21,213 nucleotides of DNA. Source: a virus. Each line of letters starts with the position of its first letter. The first letter of the stretch is position 1. The stretch is from the IMG/VR virus record IMGVR_UViG_3300024262_000303, positions 1 through 21,213 of that record; one strand, written 5' to 3'. The notes under the pieces are model-generated. The model was not told the DNA's origin, did not search any database, and saw only the letters and a list, made by a program, of their open reading frames with translations. Shown piece by piece: positions 3,962 to 20,479 of this stretch. The translations under genes and the position numbers were made by a program.

Positions 3962-4717
3962 TTATTGATTAGCTTCACCTATACTTTCTTTAATCAGTTT
4001 AACAACTAGGTCTAAATACGTAGCATCTATCAGCTCCGTATATCCACCAAATTTAACCCCATCCCACATGTATGTAGGAAATTTATTTATTATTATGTGC
4101 TCTAAATGTCGGGCTTCCCAGTAGTTAGATTTAAGGTCTAATACTTTAACACTATTAAACCCGTGGGAGTTTAAGTCCAAGATACGCTTATCTACATTAA
4201 TAGACGTGCCCACTTTTATACAGCTGTCATTTTTTAGTACATATATATTTAAAGGCTCTAATAATGCAGCATTTTTAAGACCTTCTGATATTTTACCCTT
4301 ATACTTTATAGCTCCTTTAATACCTGAACACGTAGGGCATTGCAAATTGTGGCGTAGTACATCGTCTGGTCTTGCTAAGAATTCTATGCCGCATAGCTTA
4401 CACTTGTGTAGTATTTTCACCTTTGCTTTAGTGTAAGGCTCCAAAGCATATACAGACTTATCTTTTAGTTTATCAGCATAAGTATCTATAATACTTACTT
4501 GGCTGCCCCGTACACCAACTATCTTGTCTCCACATTGTTTACATAAATCAGTTTTAGATTTCTTATTACTAGCCCACGTAGTTTCCCAAGTATGTCCACA
4601 TGCACCTATAAAGTCGGTCTTAGTTCTAGCATTAATATACACACCAGTTATTCTAGTACTTCTACCGTGGTTATACAACCATTCATTTATATCTTCTTTA
4701 GTTAATTTTGCTGGCAT
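3962..4717 (-). CDS. putative freestanding GIY-YIG homing endonuclease with zinc ribbons
   Basis: 251 aa. The N-terminal half has two zinc-binding units: C40-x-H42 with C59-x-x-C62, and C106-x-x-C109 with C127-x-x-C130. These match the treble-clef or ribbon units in front of nuclease domains of phage mobile genes. The C-terminal part has NIYVLKN (157-163), IKVGTS (167-172), Arg178 and acidic residues near 201-206, consistent with the GIY-YIG superfamily branch that includes the T5orf172/MUG113 domains. Such genes are common as freestanding homing endonucleases in T5-like phages. It sits between the DUF3307 gene and the next promoter, with its own AAGGGAG 11 nt before the ATG. Activity and target are not visible. 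A non-mobile nuclease is the alternative. Confidence 0.7.
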   Translation of the reverse strand: MPAKLTKEDINEWLYNHGRSTRITGVYINARTKTDFIGACGHTWETTWASNKKSKTDLCKQCGDKIVGVRGSQVSIIDTYADKLKDKSVYALEPYTKAKVKILHKCKLCGIEFLARPDDVLRHNLQCPTCSGIKGAIKYKGKISEGLKNAALLEPLNIYVLKNDSCIKVGTSINVDKRILDLNSHGFNSVKVLDLKSNYWEARHLEHIIINKFPTYMWDGVKFGGYTELIDATYLDLVVKLIKESIGEANQ

Positions 4718-4785: not shown

Positions 4786-5109
4786 TTATTGAAACAGTAC
4801 AGCTGCGGCTATCAGAGCAGATAAATGTATAGCTTGGTCAAATCCTATAGTGACAAAAACCGAATGTCTTTCATCCATTTGGTATAATTTAGCAGATAAT
4901 CTAGATGTAAAGAAGTCAACTAAGAAGTGTGCCAATCCTGTTGCTAGCGCAAAGTCTAGCCCAAATGGGATAAAGCATACAGCATACAGCATACAATGTA
5001 TTGCTAATACTACCACACTTTTACTTTTATTTATAGCTATATAGTCGCTTTGTAATATAAAATCCGCAAAGAAATGCACCCATATAAGTATTAATATTAA
5101 TTCTACCAT
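4786..5109 (-). CDS. DUF3307-family membrane protein
   Basis: 107 aa with three to four hydrophobic segments. Its opening HFFADFILQSDYIAINKSKS is the DUF3307 signature (a conserved His/Asp/Gln pattern near the first helix), followed by AIHCMLYAV and GLAHFLVDFFTSRL. The family occurs in bacteria and phages and has no established biochemical role that I know of. The conserved His and Asp residues inside or beside membrane segments are visible here. The ATG follows AAAGG by 6 nt and starts only 9 nt after the D10 helicase stop, so it is co-translated with replication genes. An inner-membrane location is inferred. Confidence 0.75.
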   Translation of the reverse strand: MVELILILIWVHFFADFILQSDYIAINKSKSVVVLAIHCMLYAVCFIPFGLDFALATGLAHFLVDFFTSRLSAKLYQMDERHSVFVTIGFDQAIHLSALIAAAVLFQ

Positions 5110-13616: not shown

Positions 13617-14327
13617 TTATGCCTCTGTTATGTTATTAATAATTTTAATTCCTAACTCTACTGCTTTATTATATTTGCTAGTATTGCTAGGTTTGTCTGC
13701 TAAAAGCACCGTAGTATTTTTAGATACTGCTGATGCCACGCGATATCCTTTAGATTCCGCTATTTCTTTAAGGGTAGTTCTAGTATGTCCCTCAAATGAT
13801 CCTGTTATTACCATTACGCCTTTATCTTGTACTTCAACCGCCTCTTGCATTTCCCTAAACTTAAAGGGAACTGACTGTAGCTCTAAGTATTCCGTACCGT
13901 CTAACCACTTATTTAGGTTTTCTCTAGCTTTTGGTGGAAGTTTAGCAATGTTTAAATTACTAAGTGAGTTTCCAGTTATTTTCTTAGCTGTAGATAATCC
14001 TATTAATGGTATGGATAAGCTAGATAACAACTCTACTATAGTTGTTTCTAAACTCTCCTGTATTTGTTTGTAAATCTTTCCCCCGTTTTTACCTAATACA
14101 TATATTAATTCCTCCTCAGATAAAGAATAGATATCCGGTATGCTATCTATATTAAGTTTGGATATAGACTTTTCAGCTAATCCTTTGATTTTTCTCTTTT
14201 TGCAGTAGTTTGCTATTTTCTGTGTAGCTCTTGCAGGACAAGAGATATTGGTACAAAACAGTTGATCTGTAATTCGACTTAGTTTAGTTTTGCAACACGG
14301 GCACTCGGTTGGTATTTCTATTGTCAT
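13617..14327 (-). CDS. ligB: NAD-dependent DNA ligase, C-terminal subunit (zinc finger, HhH, BRCT)
   Basis: 236 aa, the second half of a split bacterial-type ligase, as in T5. It begins exactly where the intact enzyme would continue after its OB fold. Four-cysteine zinc finger C9, C12, C25, C30 (CPCC ... CTNISC), helix-hairpin-helix region (about 40-140), and a BRCT domain from about 168 (KGVMVITGSFEG ... YRVASAVSKNTTVLLA). It lacks adenylation motifs and must work with the other subunit at 14738-15679. ATG 14327 overlaps the TGA of an 11-codon leader peptide as ATGA, so translation is probably coupled to it; its own ribosome binding site (GAGG, 11 nt away) is poor. Two tandem promoters lie upstream. 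The symbol follows T5 usage and is not E. coli LigB. Confidence 0.88.
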   Translation of the reverse strand: MTIEIPTECPCCKTKLSRITDQLFCTNISCPARATQKIANYCKKRKIKGLAEKSISKLNIDSIPDIYSLSEEELIYVLGKNGGKIYKQIQESLETTIVELLSSLSIPLIGLSTAKKITGNSLSNLNIAKLPPKARENLNKWLDGTEYLELQSVPFKFREMQEAVEVQDKGVMVITGSFEGHTRTTLKEIAESKGYRVASAVSKNTTVLLADKPSNTSKYNKAVELGIKIINNITEA

Positions 14328-14359
14328 TTTTGCCAGCGCCTCACCTCTAATTGTTTCAT
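14324..14359 (-). CDS. 11-residue leader peptide coupled to ligase subunit B
   Basis: ATG at 14359 with a strong AGGAGAGAAA just upstream encodes MKQLEVRRWQK and stops with TGA overlapping the ligase B ATG (ATGA). The start occupies the place where the start codon lies in two other promoter-leader cassettes of this window. It is too short for homology tests. It could be a translational coupling device or an attenuator. Confidence 0.6.
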   Translation of the reverse strand: MKQLEVRRWQK

Positions 14360-14388
14360 TTTCTCTCCTTTTTTCAATTTATATACAT

Positions 14389-14416
14389 ATTATACAGTAT
14401 TTATATAAATAAACAA
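14389..14416 (-). promoter_or_regulatory. sigma70-type promoter, proximal to ligase B
   Basis: TTGTTT (14416-14411), 16-nt spacer, TATAAT (14394-14389) on the minus strand. The following leader (GTATATAAATTGAAAAAAGG) is alike to those at 16362 and 21110. Confidence 0.75.
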
Positions 14417-14417
14417 G

Positions 14418-14431
14418 CTAGAAATTCCTAG
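14418..14431. repeat. near-palindrome beside the -35 element
   Basis: CTAGAAATTCCTAG is a 14-bp imperfect palindrome (one mismatched pair) ending one base from the proximal promoter's -35. Similar AGAAATTCC(C)TAG occurs on the minus strand near 21190-21206. Possible operator; weak evidence. Confidence 0.3.
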
Positions 14432-14433
14432 AG

Positions 14434-14465
14434 TGTTCTGCTGGGCGAATCTTTAACCGAGAACA
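14434..14465. repeat. inverted repeat in the distal promoter leader
   Basis: TGTTCT (14434-14439) and AGAACA (14460-14465) form a 6-bp inverted repeat with a 20-nt loop just after the predicted start of the distal promoter's transcript. It could fold in the 5' UTR. Confidence 0.35.
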
Positions 14466-14469
14466 TACT

Positions 14470-14498
14470 ATTATACAGCATTTTTAACCGTTTGTCAA
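14470..14498 (-). promoter_or_regulatory. consensus sigma70 promoter, distal to ligase B
   Basis: TTGACA (14498-14493), 17-nt spacer, TATAAT (14475-14470): a full match to the sigma70 consensus and the strongest-looking promoter in the window. It lies 9 bases past the stop of the 76-aa gene and should drive ligase B and the D5-like gene. Confidence 0.9.
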
Positions 14499-14507
14499 GA
14501 AAAATTT

Positions 14508-14738
14508 TTATTTTTTATCTCTTATTCGGGATAAGGCTTTAGATATAGGTTCTGGAGGTGTGTCCAACTTTAGTCTTGTAAGCTCTTCCTTAAAAGTCTT
14601 AAACTCAGCCTTAAAATTTTCTATACTGAAGAAACAGTCGTAGTGGTTCATATAGTTTTCATACGCTTCACCTACTGTATTTAATCCACAAGCTTCTGCT
14701 ATTTCTAACATACCTATTGCCGATGCGTTACTCTTCAT
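14508..14738 (-). CDS. hypothetical protein, 76 aa
   Basis: Small, mixed-charge, mostly helical protein (acidic middle, basic end SRIRDKK). No family recognised and no membrane segment. Its ATG shares a base with the ligase A stop (TAATG), so it is translated from the same message. It sits between the two ligase subunits, with strong promoters after it. A role with the ligase is possible from position, not shown by sequence. Confidence 0.65.
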   Translation of the reverse strand: MKSNASAIGMLEIAEACGLNTVGEAYENYMNHYDCFFSIENFKAEFKTFKEELTRLKLDTPPEPISKALSRIRDKK

Positions 14739-15679
14739 TATTTTACCCCTACAATTTGCGGAATTACTCCACCAGCTCTAGTTACTAAAATAGTATCTCC
14801 CAAACTTAACCCTAGATTCTCTATATATCCTGGATTATTCAATGTTGCTTTAGTTATCTTTGCGTCATCTATTATTACTTCATCGAAATGACCTACTGGC
14901 GTTACACGCCCACTACCTCCTACTTGCCACTCCACGCTATTTAAAGTAGTTTCTACTACCTCAACATCAGCTTTATCCTTTAAAGCGAACGCCCCTCTAG
15001 GGTGTTTTGCTGTATATCCTAATTCTTCAAATGCTTTATTATCATTTACTCTAAATACTTTTCCATCCGTTCTATACTTATCTGTTAAACCTTCTTTCAG
15101 TACTGTAGTAAATCCTAAATTTTCTACAGCTATCATACTTAATTTGTAACTTCCCCACCCTTTGTGTGATACACCATAGGCTACGAAACTTAAATGCTTT
15201 TCTTGTTCTTTAAACTTTTTTATAGATGTATTAGATCCTATAGCTCCTGCGGCAAAGTTTCTAGCATTTTCTATAGTTTTATCACAAACTACTTCCCCTG
15301 TTATTTGTATTTTTGTTGGGTAGTCTATATTATTAGGTATACTATCAAGGTGCATTACTTTATCTAATATATCCCTACCTGTCTTTCCATCTCCTCTAGT
15401 TGCTGCCTTTACTAGAATACCTTTGTCGTAAAGTAAAGCTACAGCCAACCCATCTAGTTTGGGAGTTTCTACTAGCTCATACTCCTGTAGTTTTAAAGCC
15501 TCTCCTACATATACTTTATCTAACGAGTATAGAGGAAACTCATGCTTTATATCTCCTTCTTTTGCACCTACTTCCTCTCGACCGTATCGCTCCTCTAAGT
15601 AATCATATGTAGCATCATCTATAAGACCAGTACCGTTATAGTATGCTCTTGCATACATATTTAACATTTTATGTGACAT
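14738..15679 (-). CDS. ligA: NAD-dependent DNA ligase, N-terminal subunit (adenylation and OB fold)
   Basis: 313 aa, catalytic half of a split ligase that seals nicks using NAD+. Short Ia-like start (YYNGTGLIDDATYDYLE, then HEFPLYSLDKVY), adenylated Lys74 in KLDG, RGDGKTG from 95, Glu129 in TGEV (most ligases have RGE), RNFAAG from 140, FVAYGVS from 165, TDGKVFR from 204, PRGAFALK (227-234), GSGRVTPVG in the OB region, and an end at IPQIVGVK. It therefore stops right before the zinc finger, which is encoded separately at 13617-14327. ATG 15679 directly follows the previous stop, with GAGG 6 nt upstream. T5 has the same two-subunit arrangement. Confidence 0.92.
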   Translation of the reverse strand: MSHKMLNMYARAYYNGTGLIDDATYDYLEERYGREEVGAKEGDIKHEFPLYSLDKVYVGEALKLQEYELVETPKLDGLAVALLYDKGILVKAATRGDGKTGRDILDKVMHLDSIPNNIDYPTKIQITGEVVCDKTIENARNFAAGAIGSNTSIKKFKEQEKHLSFVAYGVSHKGWGSYKLSMIAVENLGFTTVLKEGLTDKYRTDGKVFRVNDNKAFEELGYTAKHPRGAFALKDKADVEVVETTLNSVEWQVGGSGRVTPVGHFDEVIIDDAKITKATLNNPGYIENLGLSLGDTILVTRAGGVIPQIVGVK

Positions 15680-16400: not shown

Positions 16401-16943
16401 TTAGCGTAAAGTTAATCCCTTATCAATCTTAGTCTCAAACATAGCTTTAGTATCTTCAGTACTTATAATAACATACTTGTCTAAATCAATTTTTGGATAC
16501 CCAGCTATACTAAGCCACATTCCTGTCCATAAATATCCTAAATTAGTAAGATAACTTTGTTTAGTTTCTATAAATCTAGTTTGCGCATTAGTATATTTAT
16601 TACGTCCACCTCTAATTATGTTCATAATTTCTAAATACATATTAGAGTCAATATTTATATCGTGCTCTTTAAACCATTGAAAAGTTGCCTTACTACCGCC
16701 TTCGCCTTGTCTGGCTACCATTTCCGAAACTACTACATCTTTAAGGTCGTCTCTGTACATAGCTGGCACTTGTGCAGACTCAGAAACTTTCAAGGAATAT
16801 TGTGCTAATATATTCTCTAAATTTGTATACTCAGCTATAAGCTGATTTTCTGTTCTATTACCATAATTATAATTAGTGATGTACGAGATTGTACATATTG
16901 TTAGCACTAATCCGATTAATATAATTCCTAAATTGTTTTTCAT
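16401..16943 (-). CDS. LemA-like membrane protein
   Basis: 180 aa. One N-terminal membrane segment (about residues 4-24), then a long helical domain with EYTNLENILAQY, RDDLKDVV and ATFQWFKEH, the order seen in LemA-type helical bundles. Cellular LemA proteins are single-pass inner-membrane proteins of poorly known role, often next to TPM-domain genes. Here the preceding gene has a TPM-like region and a prohibitin-like gene is two further upstream. ATG 16943 has GGAG 7 nt upstream. The assignment rests on pattern and context; a generic single-pass helical protein is the alternative. Confidence 0.5.
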   Translation of the reverse strand: MKNNLGIILIGLVLTICTISYITNYNYGNRTENQLIAEYTNLENILAQYSLKVSESAQVPAMYRDDLKDVVVSEMVARQGEGGSKATFQWFKEHDINIDSNMYLEIMNIIRGGRNKYTNAQTRFIETKQSYLTNLGYLWTGMWLSIAGYPKIDLDKYVIISTEDTKAMFETKIDKGLTLR

Positions 16944-16979
16944 AAAATATCTCCAATAAAAAATAAATAAGACTACTGT

Positions 16980-18041
16980 TTAGTAGTCCCCTTTGTAAAA
17001 TACATAACTTAACCCAATACTACCTAATACAGATACAACAAACATGGCTACCATAACCCCTAATGTTGGTTCTGTTATATCTTTAAGATAATCAAAGGAA
17101 CTCATATTAGGTCTAGCATACCATTTACGAATGTTCTTTATCAATAAATTAGATATATTTTTTACATCAAACTCTTTAGAATTATGCAAAAAATCAGACT
17201 CTGCCTCAGCTTGAAAAATTTCATTTCTAAAATTTAATGCGAAGGTCATTATGCTAGACCAAGTGACTGTATATCCGTCTAATCCAATAAAAAGTACCAC
17301 ATCGTTCTTTTTACCCCCTAACCAAGCAGACTCTACAGCATATCTGTATTCTGGGTTATCTATCCCTGTTAGGATAACTAATATATTAACTTCCTTTTCT
17401 AAACCTAAACTTTTTAACTCATTATTAAGGTATGTATTAAGAGATTCTATGTCTTTCTTAGATATCTTCGAGTCTACATTTATAACTCTATTATATTTAT
17501 AATAGCTGTAAACCTTTGGATAGTTTGGAACTTTTCCAGTATACTCCCTAAAATCTATGTTTAAGTTAAATAGAGTAGAGGGTGCTGCTTTTATATTGTT
17601 AAAAAAGGTGTGTGGTATTGCCGCTGGTTCTCCCACCGTACAGTTTGTATATACGTCAGGGTCTTCAGTATCGTAAACTCTACTAGTACTACGATCTAAT
17701 TCTTTTAATACTATATCTTCTATCGGAGTTCTAGCAGTCCATTTTACAGTATATCTAGTTTCATAACATGTTTGGCAATTTCCTTTCCCATTACAGTTAC
17801 AGGGGTATGATCGCTGATACGTGCTATGTTCCCTATCCTTTGATGAAATATATGTATTCAATATTTCAGTATCTGAACCAGCTAGATTCATACCTGCCGA
17901 ATATGTGATAACTACTAATATTGATATAATTACAAATTGCACTATCCCTTCCCTAACAGTTATCTTATGCGGGAACAGCTTACGACTAATCAATACTATT
18001 ACAGCGGGTAGTGCTAGGAATATTAATAATTCAGGTTTCAA
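16980..18041 (-). CDS. membrane protein with cysteine cluster and TPM-like domain
   Basis: 353 aa. Two N-terminal membrane segments (about 4-20 and 32-52), a cysteine cluster C81, C83, C89, C92 (CNCNGKGNCQTC, resembling a DnaJ-type zinc unit), then a domain at about 205-275 (ISKKDIESLNTYLNNEL, EVNILVILTG, AWLGGKKNDVVLFIG) that follows the pattern of TPM domains, and a C-terminal membrane segment (about 326-348). TPM proteins are commonly encoded beside LemA, as here. The start is TTG at 18041, seven bases after a consensus AGGAGG; the next in-frame ATG (residue 50) would remove the first membrane segment and most of the second. Domain identity is my inference by eye. Confidence 0.55.
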   Translation of the reverse strand: MKPELLIFLALPAVIVLISRKLFPHKITVREGIVQFVIISILVVITYSAGMNLAGSDTEILNTYISSKDREHSTYQRSYPCNCNGKGNCQTCYETRYTVKWTARTPIEDIVLKELDRSTSRVYDTEDPDVYTNCTVGEPAAIPHTFFNNIKAAPSTLFNLNIDFREYTGKVPNYPKVYSYYKYNRVINVDSKISKKDIESLNTYLNNELKSLGLEKEVNILVILTGIDNPEYRYAVESAWLGGKKNDVVLFIGLDGYTVTWSSIMTFALNFRNEIFQAEAESDFLHNSKEFDVKNISNLLIKNIRKWYARPNMSSFDYLKDITEPTLGVMVAMFVVSVLGSIGLSYVFYKGDY

Positions 18042-18229
18042 AATGTACCTCCTTTATAGAACCCTTCGCCTTTTAACTTAAACATTGGTGTACCTGTGTA
18101 AATTCTGTACATCGGTTGATTACAAGATTTACATAAGATAGTATCGGTTAACTCTCTATATACCTCCAATACTAAAGCTTTATCAGGACAGTGGGAATTT
18201 CTGCACCCGACGTCAAATAATTGTTTCAT
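18038..18229 (-). CDS. FmdB-like zinc ribbon protein
   Basis: 63 aa. Two cysteine pairs (CRNSHC and CKSC, residues 9-14 and about 33-36) and the tail TPMFKLKGEGFYKGG match the FmdB/CxxC regulatory-type zinc ribbon, whose members end in a similar FxLKGxGxY. The role of these proteins is not settled. ATG 18229 has AGGAG 5 nt upstream. Its TGA overlaps the region directly before the TTG start of the next gene. It begins just after a large inverted repeat. Confidence 0.6.
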   Translation of the reverse strand: MKQLFDVGCRNSHCPDKALVLEVYRELTDTILCKSCNQPMYRIYTGTPMFKLKGEGFYKGGTF

Positions 18230-18244
18230 ATATTCTCCTATTTA

Positions 18245-18288
18245 TGTACTTAAAATAACACTAAACCTATAATGTTATTTTAAGTACA
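18245..18288. repeat. perfect 16-bp inverted repeat downstream of the SPFH gene
   Basis: TGTACTTAAAATAACA (18245-18260) and its exact complement (18273-18288) flank a 12-nt loop. It sits in the 88-nt gap between the SPFH gene and the zinc ribbon gene. It lacks a U-tract, so an mRNA processing or stabilising hairpin, or a protein binding site, is as likely as a terminator. Confidence 0.85.
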
Positions 18289-18317
18289 CCTAAGTTTCCT
18301 TAGATGTACTATTAAAT

Positions 18318-19559
18318 CTAGTTAACTTTATTATCTAAAGCTAAATCTTTTGCTGTTTTTACACTTAACATATCTATTAAGGCGGTAGCAGTACTACCTC
18401 CGCCATTAGCTGAGGTAGCTCCCATTTGTATTTCTGGAACCCACTTTTGCTTTTCTACAGCTTCCGCGAATCTAGCCATAACCGCTTCATAAGTAGCAAG
18501 CTTCTGTGTTAAAGCACCGTCTGCTTGCATTACTAGACGTTTATACTCTCCATCCCCTTCACCTTGTAGGACTTTCATTTTCTTATACTCACTAGCTGCA
18601 AGTCTTTTCTGCTTAGCCTCTAGTAATTGTTGTGCGGCTACATCTACAAACTTCTGAGCAGTAATTATAGCAACTTCTTTATCCTGTTCCGCAGATACAA
18701 TAGCTTGCTTTTTTAATACTTCACGCTCATATTTTGCGGTCATTACGTTAGCCTTCCCTTGCTCTTCAGCAGTAAGAGAATCCTGTTTAGCTCTCTCAGC
18801 GTTAGCCTTCGCTGTAATAATAGCCATAGTAGCTTCACGTCTCGCAGCAATTTGAACTAGTGTTTTTGGCTCAAAGTCCCAATCCGTAATTTGAAAACCA
18901 GAAACTGTAATCCCATACATAGTAAAATCACTAGTGTTATGCTTTGCTAGTCCATTATCATCATATGTAATAACTGGTACATGCTTAGTAAGTTCAGTAC
19001 CTACTTCATCAACAACCACAACCTCTTTTAATTCCGTCTGAAATGTACCCTTAGCTATTTGGTCATGTGCCCATTGCGTAAATGTACTTCTTTTTTCAGC
19101 ATATGCTTCTTCACTACTCATCAATCCAGCAGTTAAGTTCATACCCTCTTCAGCTATAGGTGTAATTAACTTATTAGCAACTCCCTCGTTACTGCGAAAG
19201 GCTTTGTGCAGGGCTATCATTGTCTCTCTATCCGTAGGTAGGGAGAATCTAGCCTTACCATGAATTGTACCTGTACCTCCGTCTTGATAGCGAACAGGAA
19301 TTCCGTTAGTATTGATACTGGCGGTGTTATCTTCAGATGTAGAAAAATCAAACGTTAAAACATCGTTATATTCTTCAGCATTACCAAACCATTTAAAATA
19401 TACTCCAGGACTAAACTTTACGAACAAAGTCCCGCTAGGATATTGTACTACTGTTCGTTGTCCAGCATCATTAATGCCTACAGTCATATCTAGTGCTATA
19501 ATCATAACTGCGGCTAATGTTCCCAGTATTAAAATTTTTGAATTTTTTGAATTACTCAT
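18318..19559 (-). CDS. SPFH/Band-7 (prohibitin-like) membrane protein
   Basis: 413 aa. One N-terminal membrane anchor (about residues 8-26), then an SPFH domain (about 30-250: NDAGQRTVVQYPSGTLF, SPGVYFKW, FTMYGITVSGFQI) and a long Ala/Glu/Lys-rich coiled coil (about 245-370, with ARREATMAIITAKANAERAK), ending in a Gly/Ser linker and short tail. This is the flotillin/HflK/prohibitin arrangement: such proteins oligomerise on the inner membrane, form rings or microdomains, and can control FtsH-type proteases. Upstream is a small coiled-coil membrane protein whose stop overlaps this start by 8 nt. Family membership is clear; the phage function is unknown. Confidence 0.85.
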   Translation of the reverse strand: MSNSKNSKILILGTLAAVMIIALDMTVGINDAGQRTVVQYPSGTLFVKFSPGVYFKWFGNAEEYNDVLTFDFSTSEDNTASINTNGIPVRYQDGGTGTIHGKARFSLPTDRETMIALHKAFRSNEGVANKLITPIAEEGMNLTAGLMSSEEAYAEKRSTFTQWAHDQIAKGTFQTELKEVVVVDEVGTELTKHVPVITYDDNGLAKHNTSDFTMYGITVSGFQITDWDFEPKTLVQIAARREATMAIITAKANAERAKQDSLTAEEQGKANVMTAKYEREVLKKQAIVSAEQDKEVAIITAQKFVDVAAQQLLEAKQKRLAASEYKKMKVLQGEGDGEYKRLVMQADGALTQKLATYEAVMARFAEAVEKQKWVPEIQMGATSANGGGSTATALIDMLSVKTAKDLALDNKVN

Positions 19560-19776
19560 TTATACTCTCGTCTATTTGTTTAATATTATTTTTAATAACC
19601 CTCTGCTTATATCTCTCTTTAGCCGCAGATTCCTCCAACTCTAATGCAGATACTCTTAATTTTTCTTCGTCAAGTCTTTGCTCCTCAGCCCCTTTAAATT
19701 TTTTAACCTCATACCATTTCAGTAACCAAAATACTAACAACCATATTACTATAGCCCCTATATAAATTTTTAACAT
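19552..19776 (-). CDS. small membrane protein with coiled-coil tail
   Basis: 74 aa. N-terminal membrane segment (about 3-20, IYIGAIVIWLLVFWLLK) and a strongly charged helix to the end (EEQRLDEEKLRVSALELEESAAKERY), likely a coiled coil. Overlaps the SPFH gene start by 8 nt. Size, topology and coupling suggest a partner of the SPFH protein; this is inference. ATG 19776 with AGGA about 7 nt upstream. Confidence 0.65.
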   Translation of the reverse strand: MLKIYIGAIVIWLLVFWLLKWYEVKKFKGAEEQRLDEEKLRVSALELEESAAKERYKQRVIKNNIKQIDESINE

Positions 19777-19792
19777 AATCTTCCTCTTAAAG

Positions 19793-19812
19793 TAGGGCGC
19801 GAAAGCGCCCTA
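19793..19812. repeat. GC-rich 8-bp hairpin with tetraloop
   Basis: TAGGGCGC GAAA GCGCCCTA on the plus strand (loop UUUC in the gene direction). It lies between two small membrane genes. Only CUUU follows in the gene direction, so it could be a weak terminator or an mRNA-stabilising hairpin. Confidence 0.6.
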
Positions 19813-19817
19813 TTAAG

Positions 19818-20066
19818 CTACTCTACAACTTTAGTCTTAGATACTTCTAAGGCCTCTTTATACGTATACACATACTCTGGAACTTGTTTCCATACTCTTT
19901 CTTCCGAAAGAGTAGTCTCACTTTCTTTAAGTTCTTTAACTTTAAGAGGCATTAAGATTATTAGTATCATTAGTATAATTACTAGAACGACACCTAATGG
20001 TCTGTCTCCCCATCCGAAAGCCATACATATAGTAACTATCATAATTAGAATAGCTAGTAGTACCAT
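19818..20066 (-). CDS. small two-pass membrane protein, 82 aa
   Basis: Two hydrophobic segments (about residues 2-17 and 24-41) joined by a short GWGDRPLG turn, then a charged C-terminal tail of about 40 residues. No family recognised. Starts 5 nt after the preceding stop. First membrane gene of the SPFH/LemA group. Confidence 0.65.
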   Translation of the reverse strand: MVLLAILIMIVTICMAFGWGDRPLGVVLVIILMILIILMPLKVKELKESETTLSEERVWKQVPEYVYTYKEALEVSKTKVVE

Positions 20067-20071
20067 CTACT

Positions 20072-20479
20072 CTAATCCTCTTCTACGTCAGGCAGTGGAG
20101 TGCCTACCTGACCAACCAAGTCAATTATAGCCTCCAATACTTTAGCTGTGATTTTTTTGGTATCTTCTTCATCTAAAGAGAACTCAGCACCATTTAACTC
20201 ACAGATAGCCACAAAGTTTGCCAATGCTTTAGCTTTAGGAGTAACGCGAGGTTTCTTCTCTCCGCCAGATTTTTTAGATGCCGCCTTAGCAGGTTCTTTT
20301 TTAACATACACTTCAGCATTTGTTAATATGCGTCGAATAGCATTTACACTACGAGGCTCATCATCATCCTGAGTGTCATCGGAAATCATTTGTACAATTT
20401 CCTCTGTGGTATCTGGTGTAGGTTCTTCTGCTAAGTACGCCTCTACTACCGATGTCTTTTGTTCTTCTGTCCAAGCCAT
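20072..20479 (-). CDS. small DNA-binding-like protein related to the D5-like repeats
   Basis: 135 aa. The N-terminal unit (WTEEQKTSVVEAYLAEE ... RSVNAIRRILTNAEVYVKK) matches the repeat unit of the 250-aa D5-like protein at 12861-13613 in its opening WTEE and closing helix. A basic middle (AASKKSGGEKKPRVTPKAK) and an acidic end (DVEED) follow. It is probably a single-unit relative that binds DNA. ATG 20479 has AGAGG 8 nt upstream, and it is the first gene after a promoter. Confidence 0.65.
   Translation of the reverse strand: MAWTEEQKTSVVEAYLAEEPTPDTTEEIVQMISDDTQDDDEPRSVNAIRRILTNAEVYVKKEPAKAASKKSGGEKKPRVTPKAKALANFVAICELNGAEFSLDEEDTKKITAKVLEAIIDLVGQVGTPLPDVEED

Follow-up and report, generated by a model that had tools for sequence, protein, structure and literature searches.

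The adjacent TPM and LemA genes found in this virus fragment look like a widespread, unrecognised phage gene pair and a way to act on the host membrane. Beside them lies a second pair, consisting of an SPFH/Band-7 gene and the gene of a small membrane-anchored partner, and the two are independently conserved pairs placed side by side, not one conserved module. The main gain is the assignment of two phage protein families to TPM and LemA, along with the recognition of the SPFH and small-partner pair.

Six genes next to a T5-like replication region

The stretch analysed, referred to as the window, was an entire IMG/VR virus fragment of 21,213 bases. Its minus strand carries a T5-like replication region with genes for an SbcD-like nuclease, ssDNA-binding protein, helicase, DNA polymerase, primase, DnaB-like helicase, D5-like regulator and NAD-dependent ligase. 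The genes under study are located just upstream of the ligase and are adjoined on the other side by the gene of a DNA-binding protein (phrog_1725, 20072-20479). The sequence-only reading had placed six genes here and had counted five predicted membrane proteins among their products, and both claims were borne out. Six consecutive minus-strand ORFs, contiguous and with some ends overlapping, fill 16401-20066 (Table 1), and TM-like segments were predicted in the 180-, 353-, 413-, 74- and 82-aa proteins, with none in the 63-aa protein.

Table 1. Features of the membrane-gene region in window coordinates
Feature	Position	Strand	Remarks
LemA-family 180-aa protein	16401..16943	-	one N-terminal TM helix and helical domain; phrog_1383
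Terminator-like hairpin between TPM and LemA genes	16969..16990	-	
353-aa TPM membrane protein (very probable)	16980..18041	-	phrog_2087; TTG start overlaps 63-aa gene
63-aa protein, four cysteines (CX4C, CX2C)	18038..18229	-	FmdB-like zinc ribbon by eye only
20-pair hairpin between SPFH and 63-aa genes	18244..18290	-	-29.6 kcal/mol for folded stretch
413-aa SPFH/Band-7 protein	18318..19559	-	phrog_11908
74-aa protein	19552..19776	-	one N-terminal TM, 47% charged tail; overlaps SPFH start by 8 bases
GC-rich hairpin AGGGCGC-TTTC-GCGCCCT between 82-aa and 74-aa genes	19785..19820	-	
82-aa protein	19818..20066	-	two TM-like segments

The placement of all six genes on one transcript, also claimed in that reading, was not supported, as stable hairpins separate the 82- and 74-aa genes (-17.7 kcal/mol, z -3.0), the SPFH and 63-aa genes (z -6.8), and the TPM and LemA genes, the last one terminator-like with a T-rich tail. 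The second of these is a very stable inverted repeat, GTACTTAAAATAACA, without an obvious T-tract, and may be a processing or regulatory site. A smaller hairpin overlaps it and has the 5' arm in common. The idea that an intergenic hairpin arm serves as a recurring operator was rejected, as its matches were no more frequent than expected by chance.

Some other features of the window were noted. The NAD-dependent DNA ligase is encoded by two separate genes (phrog_3359 and phrog_3498, window 13617-15679), between which lie a 76-aa ORF and a gap. A 251-aa ORF at 3962-4717 has several cysteine pairs and a C-terminal part that by eye resembles GIY-YIG/T5orf172 nucleases, and the hydrophobic 107-aa ORF at 4786-5109 is, again by eye, like DUF3307-type membrane proteins.

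LemA and TPM in phages

Scans of the window proteins with Pfam and NCBIfam gave nothing for LemA or TPM, and the curated Pfam LemA model (PF04011) matched neither the 180-aa protein nor its relatives; profiles built from phage sequences were therefore used. The best PDB match of the LemA profile, made of seven phage sequences, was T. maritima LemA (2ETD) with an E-value of 0.07. For the cellular test set, 80 loci were retrieved with the 2ETD sequence and a piece of MG1655 was added, which gave 4,048 ORFs. Against these ORFs the phage-only profile returned exactly 80 matches, one per locus and each the LemA gene (E 1e-9 to 3e-3); with iteration on phage sequences alone it reached E 2e-13, and the reversed profile returned zero. 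Alignment of phage to cellular LemA by hhalign gave 97.7% and E 1.9e-12, when mismatched families scored 0.004 or worse. The PHROG 1383 model and Pfam LemA also had matches in exactly the same 6 of 14 control genomes. Foldseek alone gave no significant match for the LemA model, and 2ETD was absent from the structural chains listed for it. The recovery of all 80 cellular LemA genes and the hhalign score bear out the call that had been made by eye, and the 180-aa protein, with its TM helix followed by a helical domain, almost certainly belongs to the LemA family.

PHROG 1383 is labelled "virion structural protein", and the public names of the homologues range from 'hypothetical protein' through 'virion structural protein' even to 'major capsid protein'. 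The last name, found in some records such as MF979564 and MW021758, is probably a propagated misannotation.

The 353-aa protein has two N-terminal TM helices, a Cys-rich beta domain (residues about 56-147), a TPM domain (about 166-310) and a C-terminal TM helix; judging by the charges flanking its helices, it probably exposes the Cys-rich and TPM domains to the periplasm. Its AlphaFold model had a pLDDT of 94.9. The seven best structural matches were all TPM proteins (5anp, 3pvh, 7tbr, 3ptj, 8c7i, 2kw7 and 2kpt; Z 9.8 to 8.0 over about residues 166-310), a fold match that depends on the realignment and on the best-ranked structures all being of one kind, the Foldseek E-values themselves being not significant. 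The Pfam TPM model (PF04536) did not match the window protein itself, and on the genomes of PX29, pVp-1 and phiN3 it gave matches under the cut-off (E 3-4e-4 per genome), each inside the homologous gene. Searched against the 4,048 cellular ORFs, the phage TPM profile had a sole match (E 0.007), which was a gene adjoining LemA and was identified as TPM via E. coli YgcG. The hhalign comparison of phage and cellular TPM was in a plausible register and not significant; in the alignment, the window segment KKNDVVLF stands opposite KRNDGILI of YgcG. The family model of phrog_2087, labelled "unknown function", found no match in the TPM-bearing control genomes. The predicted structure and these weak but consistent profile matches agree with the by-eye TPM call, and we identify the 353-aa protein as a TPM protein with high confidence.

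The suggested pairing of the two proteins also proved to be conserved. LemA adjoined TPM on the same strand at every one of the 115 viral loci that have the two genes; these loci represent 88 distinct TPM and 80 distinct LemA sequences and include some contigs fetched twice. The order was always TPM then LemA, the median distance between them being 15 bases. L128 and L177 have TPM without LemA, and both end shortly after the TPM gene. Scans of viral contigs with the single 180- and 353-aa proteins found nothing, and the pair was found by alignment-based scans. By tblastn, 454 phage records contained the TPM protein and 429 contained LemA, and these covered T5-like, Ackermann-type, T4-like and jumbo phages.

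PHROG 1383 and PHROG 2087, to which the 180- and 353-aa proteins belong, are assigned here to LemA and TPM. The two proteins are like cellular LemA (PF04011; 2ETD; MamQ) and TPM (PF04536; E. coli YgcG, TLP18.3, Psb32) in both families and in their adjacency, but the gene order is reversed: in the cellular loci sampled, mostly from Firmicutes, 70 of the 73 TPM genes follow LemA. The phage TPM protein further differs from cellular TPM in its two N-terminal TM helices and the added Cys-rich beta domain. The literature search turned up one annotation of a prophage LemA and otherwise no paper that treats phage LemA together with TPM. The annotation is in Lactococcus garvieae prophage PLg-TB25, in which a LemA-family gene adjoins the gene of a 269-aa membrane protein (PMC5431838). 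The arrangement is similar in that a phage-borne LemA-family protein is encoded beside a membrane protein, but PLg-TB25 is a temperate Gram-positive phage and its LemA gene comes first. As the PLg-TB25 LemA is 75% identical to that of L. lactis (PMC5431838), it was probably acquired separately and recently.

The SPFH protein and its small upstream partner

Band_7 (PF01145) matched the 413-aa protein at E 1.9e-10 with 41.5 bits, above the Pfam cut-off of 23.6, which confirmed the earlier SPFH call and makes its identity as an SPFH/Band-7 protein nearly certain. The protein, whose family is PHROG 11908, has an N-terminal TM, the SPFH domain at about residues 32-256 and a tail rich in Ala, Glu and Lys. 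It was detected by tblastn in 47 phage records, among them those of Vibrio T5-like phages, of crAss001 and of Sinorhizobium phage phiN3.

A small gene was located directly 5' of the SPFH gene in all 11 loci compared, namely the window and ten relatives (L004, L241-L245, L247-L249 and pVp-1), which have 37-56% identity to the window SPFH protein. The pairing of SPFH with the 74-aa protein, suggested beforehand, is accordingly a conserved gene pair in this set. The upstream proteins of the relatives, 52-106 aa in length, have one N-terminal TM and a tail with 41-57% charged residues, and their genes often overlap the SPFH start; sequence identity among them is low, and they are positional homologues of the 74-aa protein. 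Since only 8 of 27 small genes nearby encode an N-terminal TM, the association is unlikely to be due to chance, with the reservation that these relatives are not independent. Most of the more distant SPFH genes in phages stand without such a gene, which was not seen upstream of those of CHOED, MQM1, phiN3, Milchi and VBP47. A relationship of the 74-aa protein or its relatives to PspB was considered and rejected, the match (E 0.09) appearing in only one of the 11 members.

SPFH proteins are known in T4-like phages (PMC1524935) and in phiSH19 (PMC3220722), and that of a Vi01-like phage was detected by virion mass spectrometry (PMC10892097). The window protein shares the SPFH domain and the membrane anchor with these phage proteins (PHROG 11908, the PHROG 200 lipoprotein, and the Band 7 proteins of T4-like and Vi01-like phages), but its clade differs in having the small TM partner gene directly upstream. 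Encoding of an SPFH protein together with membrane-protein partners is also seen in the PspA-YdjGHI operon of B. subtilis (PMC8581546), with the differences that no PspA homologue is present in the phage locus and that YdjI lacks a membrane anchor of its own, whereas the window SPFH protein has a TM segment.

In three relatives FmdB-type zinc ribbons were observed immediately ahead of the SPFH gene pair or immediately behind it, at L004:7227-7526, L004:10407-10637, L241:7370-7669, L241:9335-9553 and L242:7334-7591, with PF09723 found in L004, hinting at a recurring neighbourhood. The proposal that the 63-aa window protein is an FmdB-type zinc ribbon was itself not upheld: no Pfam profile, that of FmdB (PF09723) included, matched it even at E<10, BLAST found no similarity to the ribbons beside the related SPFH genes, and its first cysteine pair is CX4C, compared with the CX2C...CX2C spacing of FmdB. 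Given the ribbons flanking SPFH in the three relatives, the zinc-ribbon idea may yet hold. The 82-aa protein had no relatives in the phage collection.

Possible roles at the host membrane

The six genes had been read as one membrane module. That all of them form one functional module expressed together appears improbable, although they are contiguous with some overlapping ends, and although the SPFH and TPM-LemA genes stand within about 4-14 kb of each other in pVp-1, AhSzw-1, phiN3 and three contigs. A Band_7 gene was present in only 18 of 50 LemA-TPM contigs, mostly at tens to hundreds of kb from the pair. Conversely, only one of the ten contigs with close SPFH relatives, some of which are fragments, had LemA (pVp-1), Thalassa has SPFH and no LemA, and the hairpins between the genes also speak against joint expression. 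A gene near TPM-LemA in FEC14, suspected from its length to encode SPFH, turned out to be an amino acid:DNA transferase. The linkage of SPFH to TPM-LemA was not established beyond chance, and a looser functional link between them is possible.

The TPM-LemA pair lies amid nucleotide or replication genes in the unrelated phages PX29, FEC14, Acibel004 and XacN1. This placement points to expression in the early or middle phase and speaks against a part in virion structure or lysis; in phage KEY the pair lies in a tRNA cluster. The membrane role proposed earlier is therefore plausible early in infection, even though its one-module form did not stand. FtsH is under the control of HflK/C and prohibitins, plant TLP18.3 takes part in the repair of membrane proteins, and LemA genes often lie close to htpX. 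As the best-supported reading we tentatively propose an early- or mid-infection membrane scaffold and envelope-maintenance unit that steers membrane-protein turnover. Both pairs would be produced early or in mid infection, with the host inner membrane as their site of action. In the manner of HflK/C and prohibitins, SPFH and the 74-aa partner would build an oligomeric scaffold in the membrane. The TPM protein, with its domains probably on the periplasmic side, would form a unit for envelope maintenance together with LemA, comparable to bacterial LemA-TPM. The two pairs might in this way keep the membrane in order during phage replication and steer the turnover of membrane proteins, for example by FtsH or HtpX. 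Among cellular counterparts, the LemA protein MamQ is required for magnetosome membranes to be normal, and a 2016 paper names it as the sole LemA member tied to a cellular process (PMC4902198); the SPFH protein YdjI of B. subtilis acts with two membrane partners in envelope stress (PMC8581546). Against the maintenance mechanism stand the PHROGs label of the LemA family and the usual separation of SPFH from TPM-LemA, so that their joint action is proposed only.

Other roles were weighed against this mechanism. Small early membrane proteins in phages often serve superinfection exclusion or counter-defence, and the presence of the genes in many phages and their absence from others is in keeping with an accessory function of this kind, by which the entry of competing phage DNA would be blocked or membrane-acting abortive-infection effectors blunted. 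We consider it unlikely, because the proteins had no match to known defence models and no credible one to superinfection proteins (only phrog_1301 with the 82-aa protein, E 0.04), and because an ordered pair kept over diverse phages would seem more constrained than typical exclusion genes. Somewhat less likely still is the membrane anchoring or compartmentalisation of phage DNA replication. The location inside the replication region of the window and beside replication genes in FEC14 and XacN1 would agree with it, but the proteins contain no DNA- or replisome-binding domain, and the pair of KEY sits among tRNA genes. The PHROG label would make the LemA protein a virion component, in line with the annotation of Acibel004 gp20 as a structural protein in a phage that had its particles examined by mass spectrometry (PMC4128745) and with three SPFH peptides detected in Sajous1 virions (PMC10892097). 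The homology to a cellular membrane family, the TM segment, and the position of the gene outside the structural clusters in Acibel004 and PX29 render this improbable, and low peptide counts may represent cell debris according to the authors of the Sajous1 study (PMC10892097).

Two widespread phage families, PHROG 1383 and PHROG 2087, gain a family identity. The function of LemA-TPM in bacteria is poorly known, and phages with the pair would offer a tractable genetic system in which to learn it. The SPFH clade, with its constant small partner, points to a minimal SPFH complex of two proteins. At a more speculative level, large lytic phages of many lineages might use TPM-LemA as a dedicated cassette for remodelling or protecting the host inner membrane in early infection. 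It would be the viral equivalent of membrane organisation of the MamQ type, and in some of these phages it would be reinforced by a scaffold of SPFH and its small partner.
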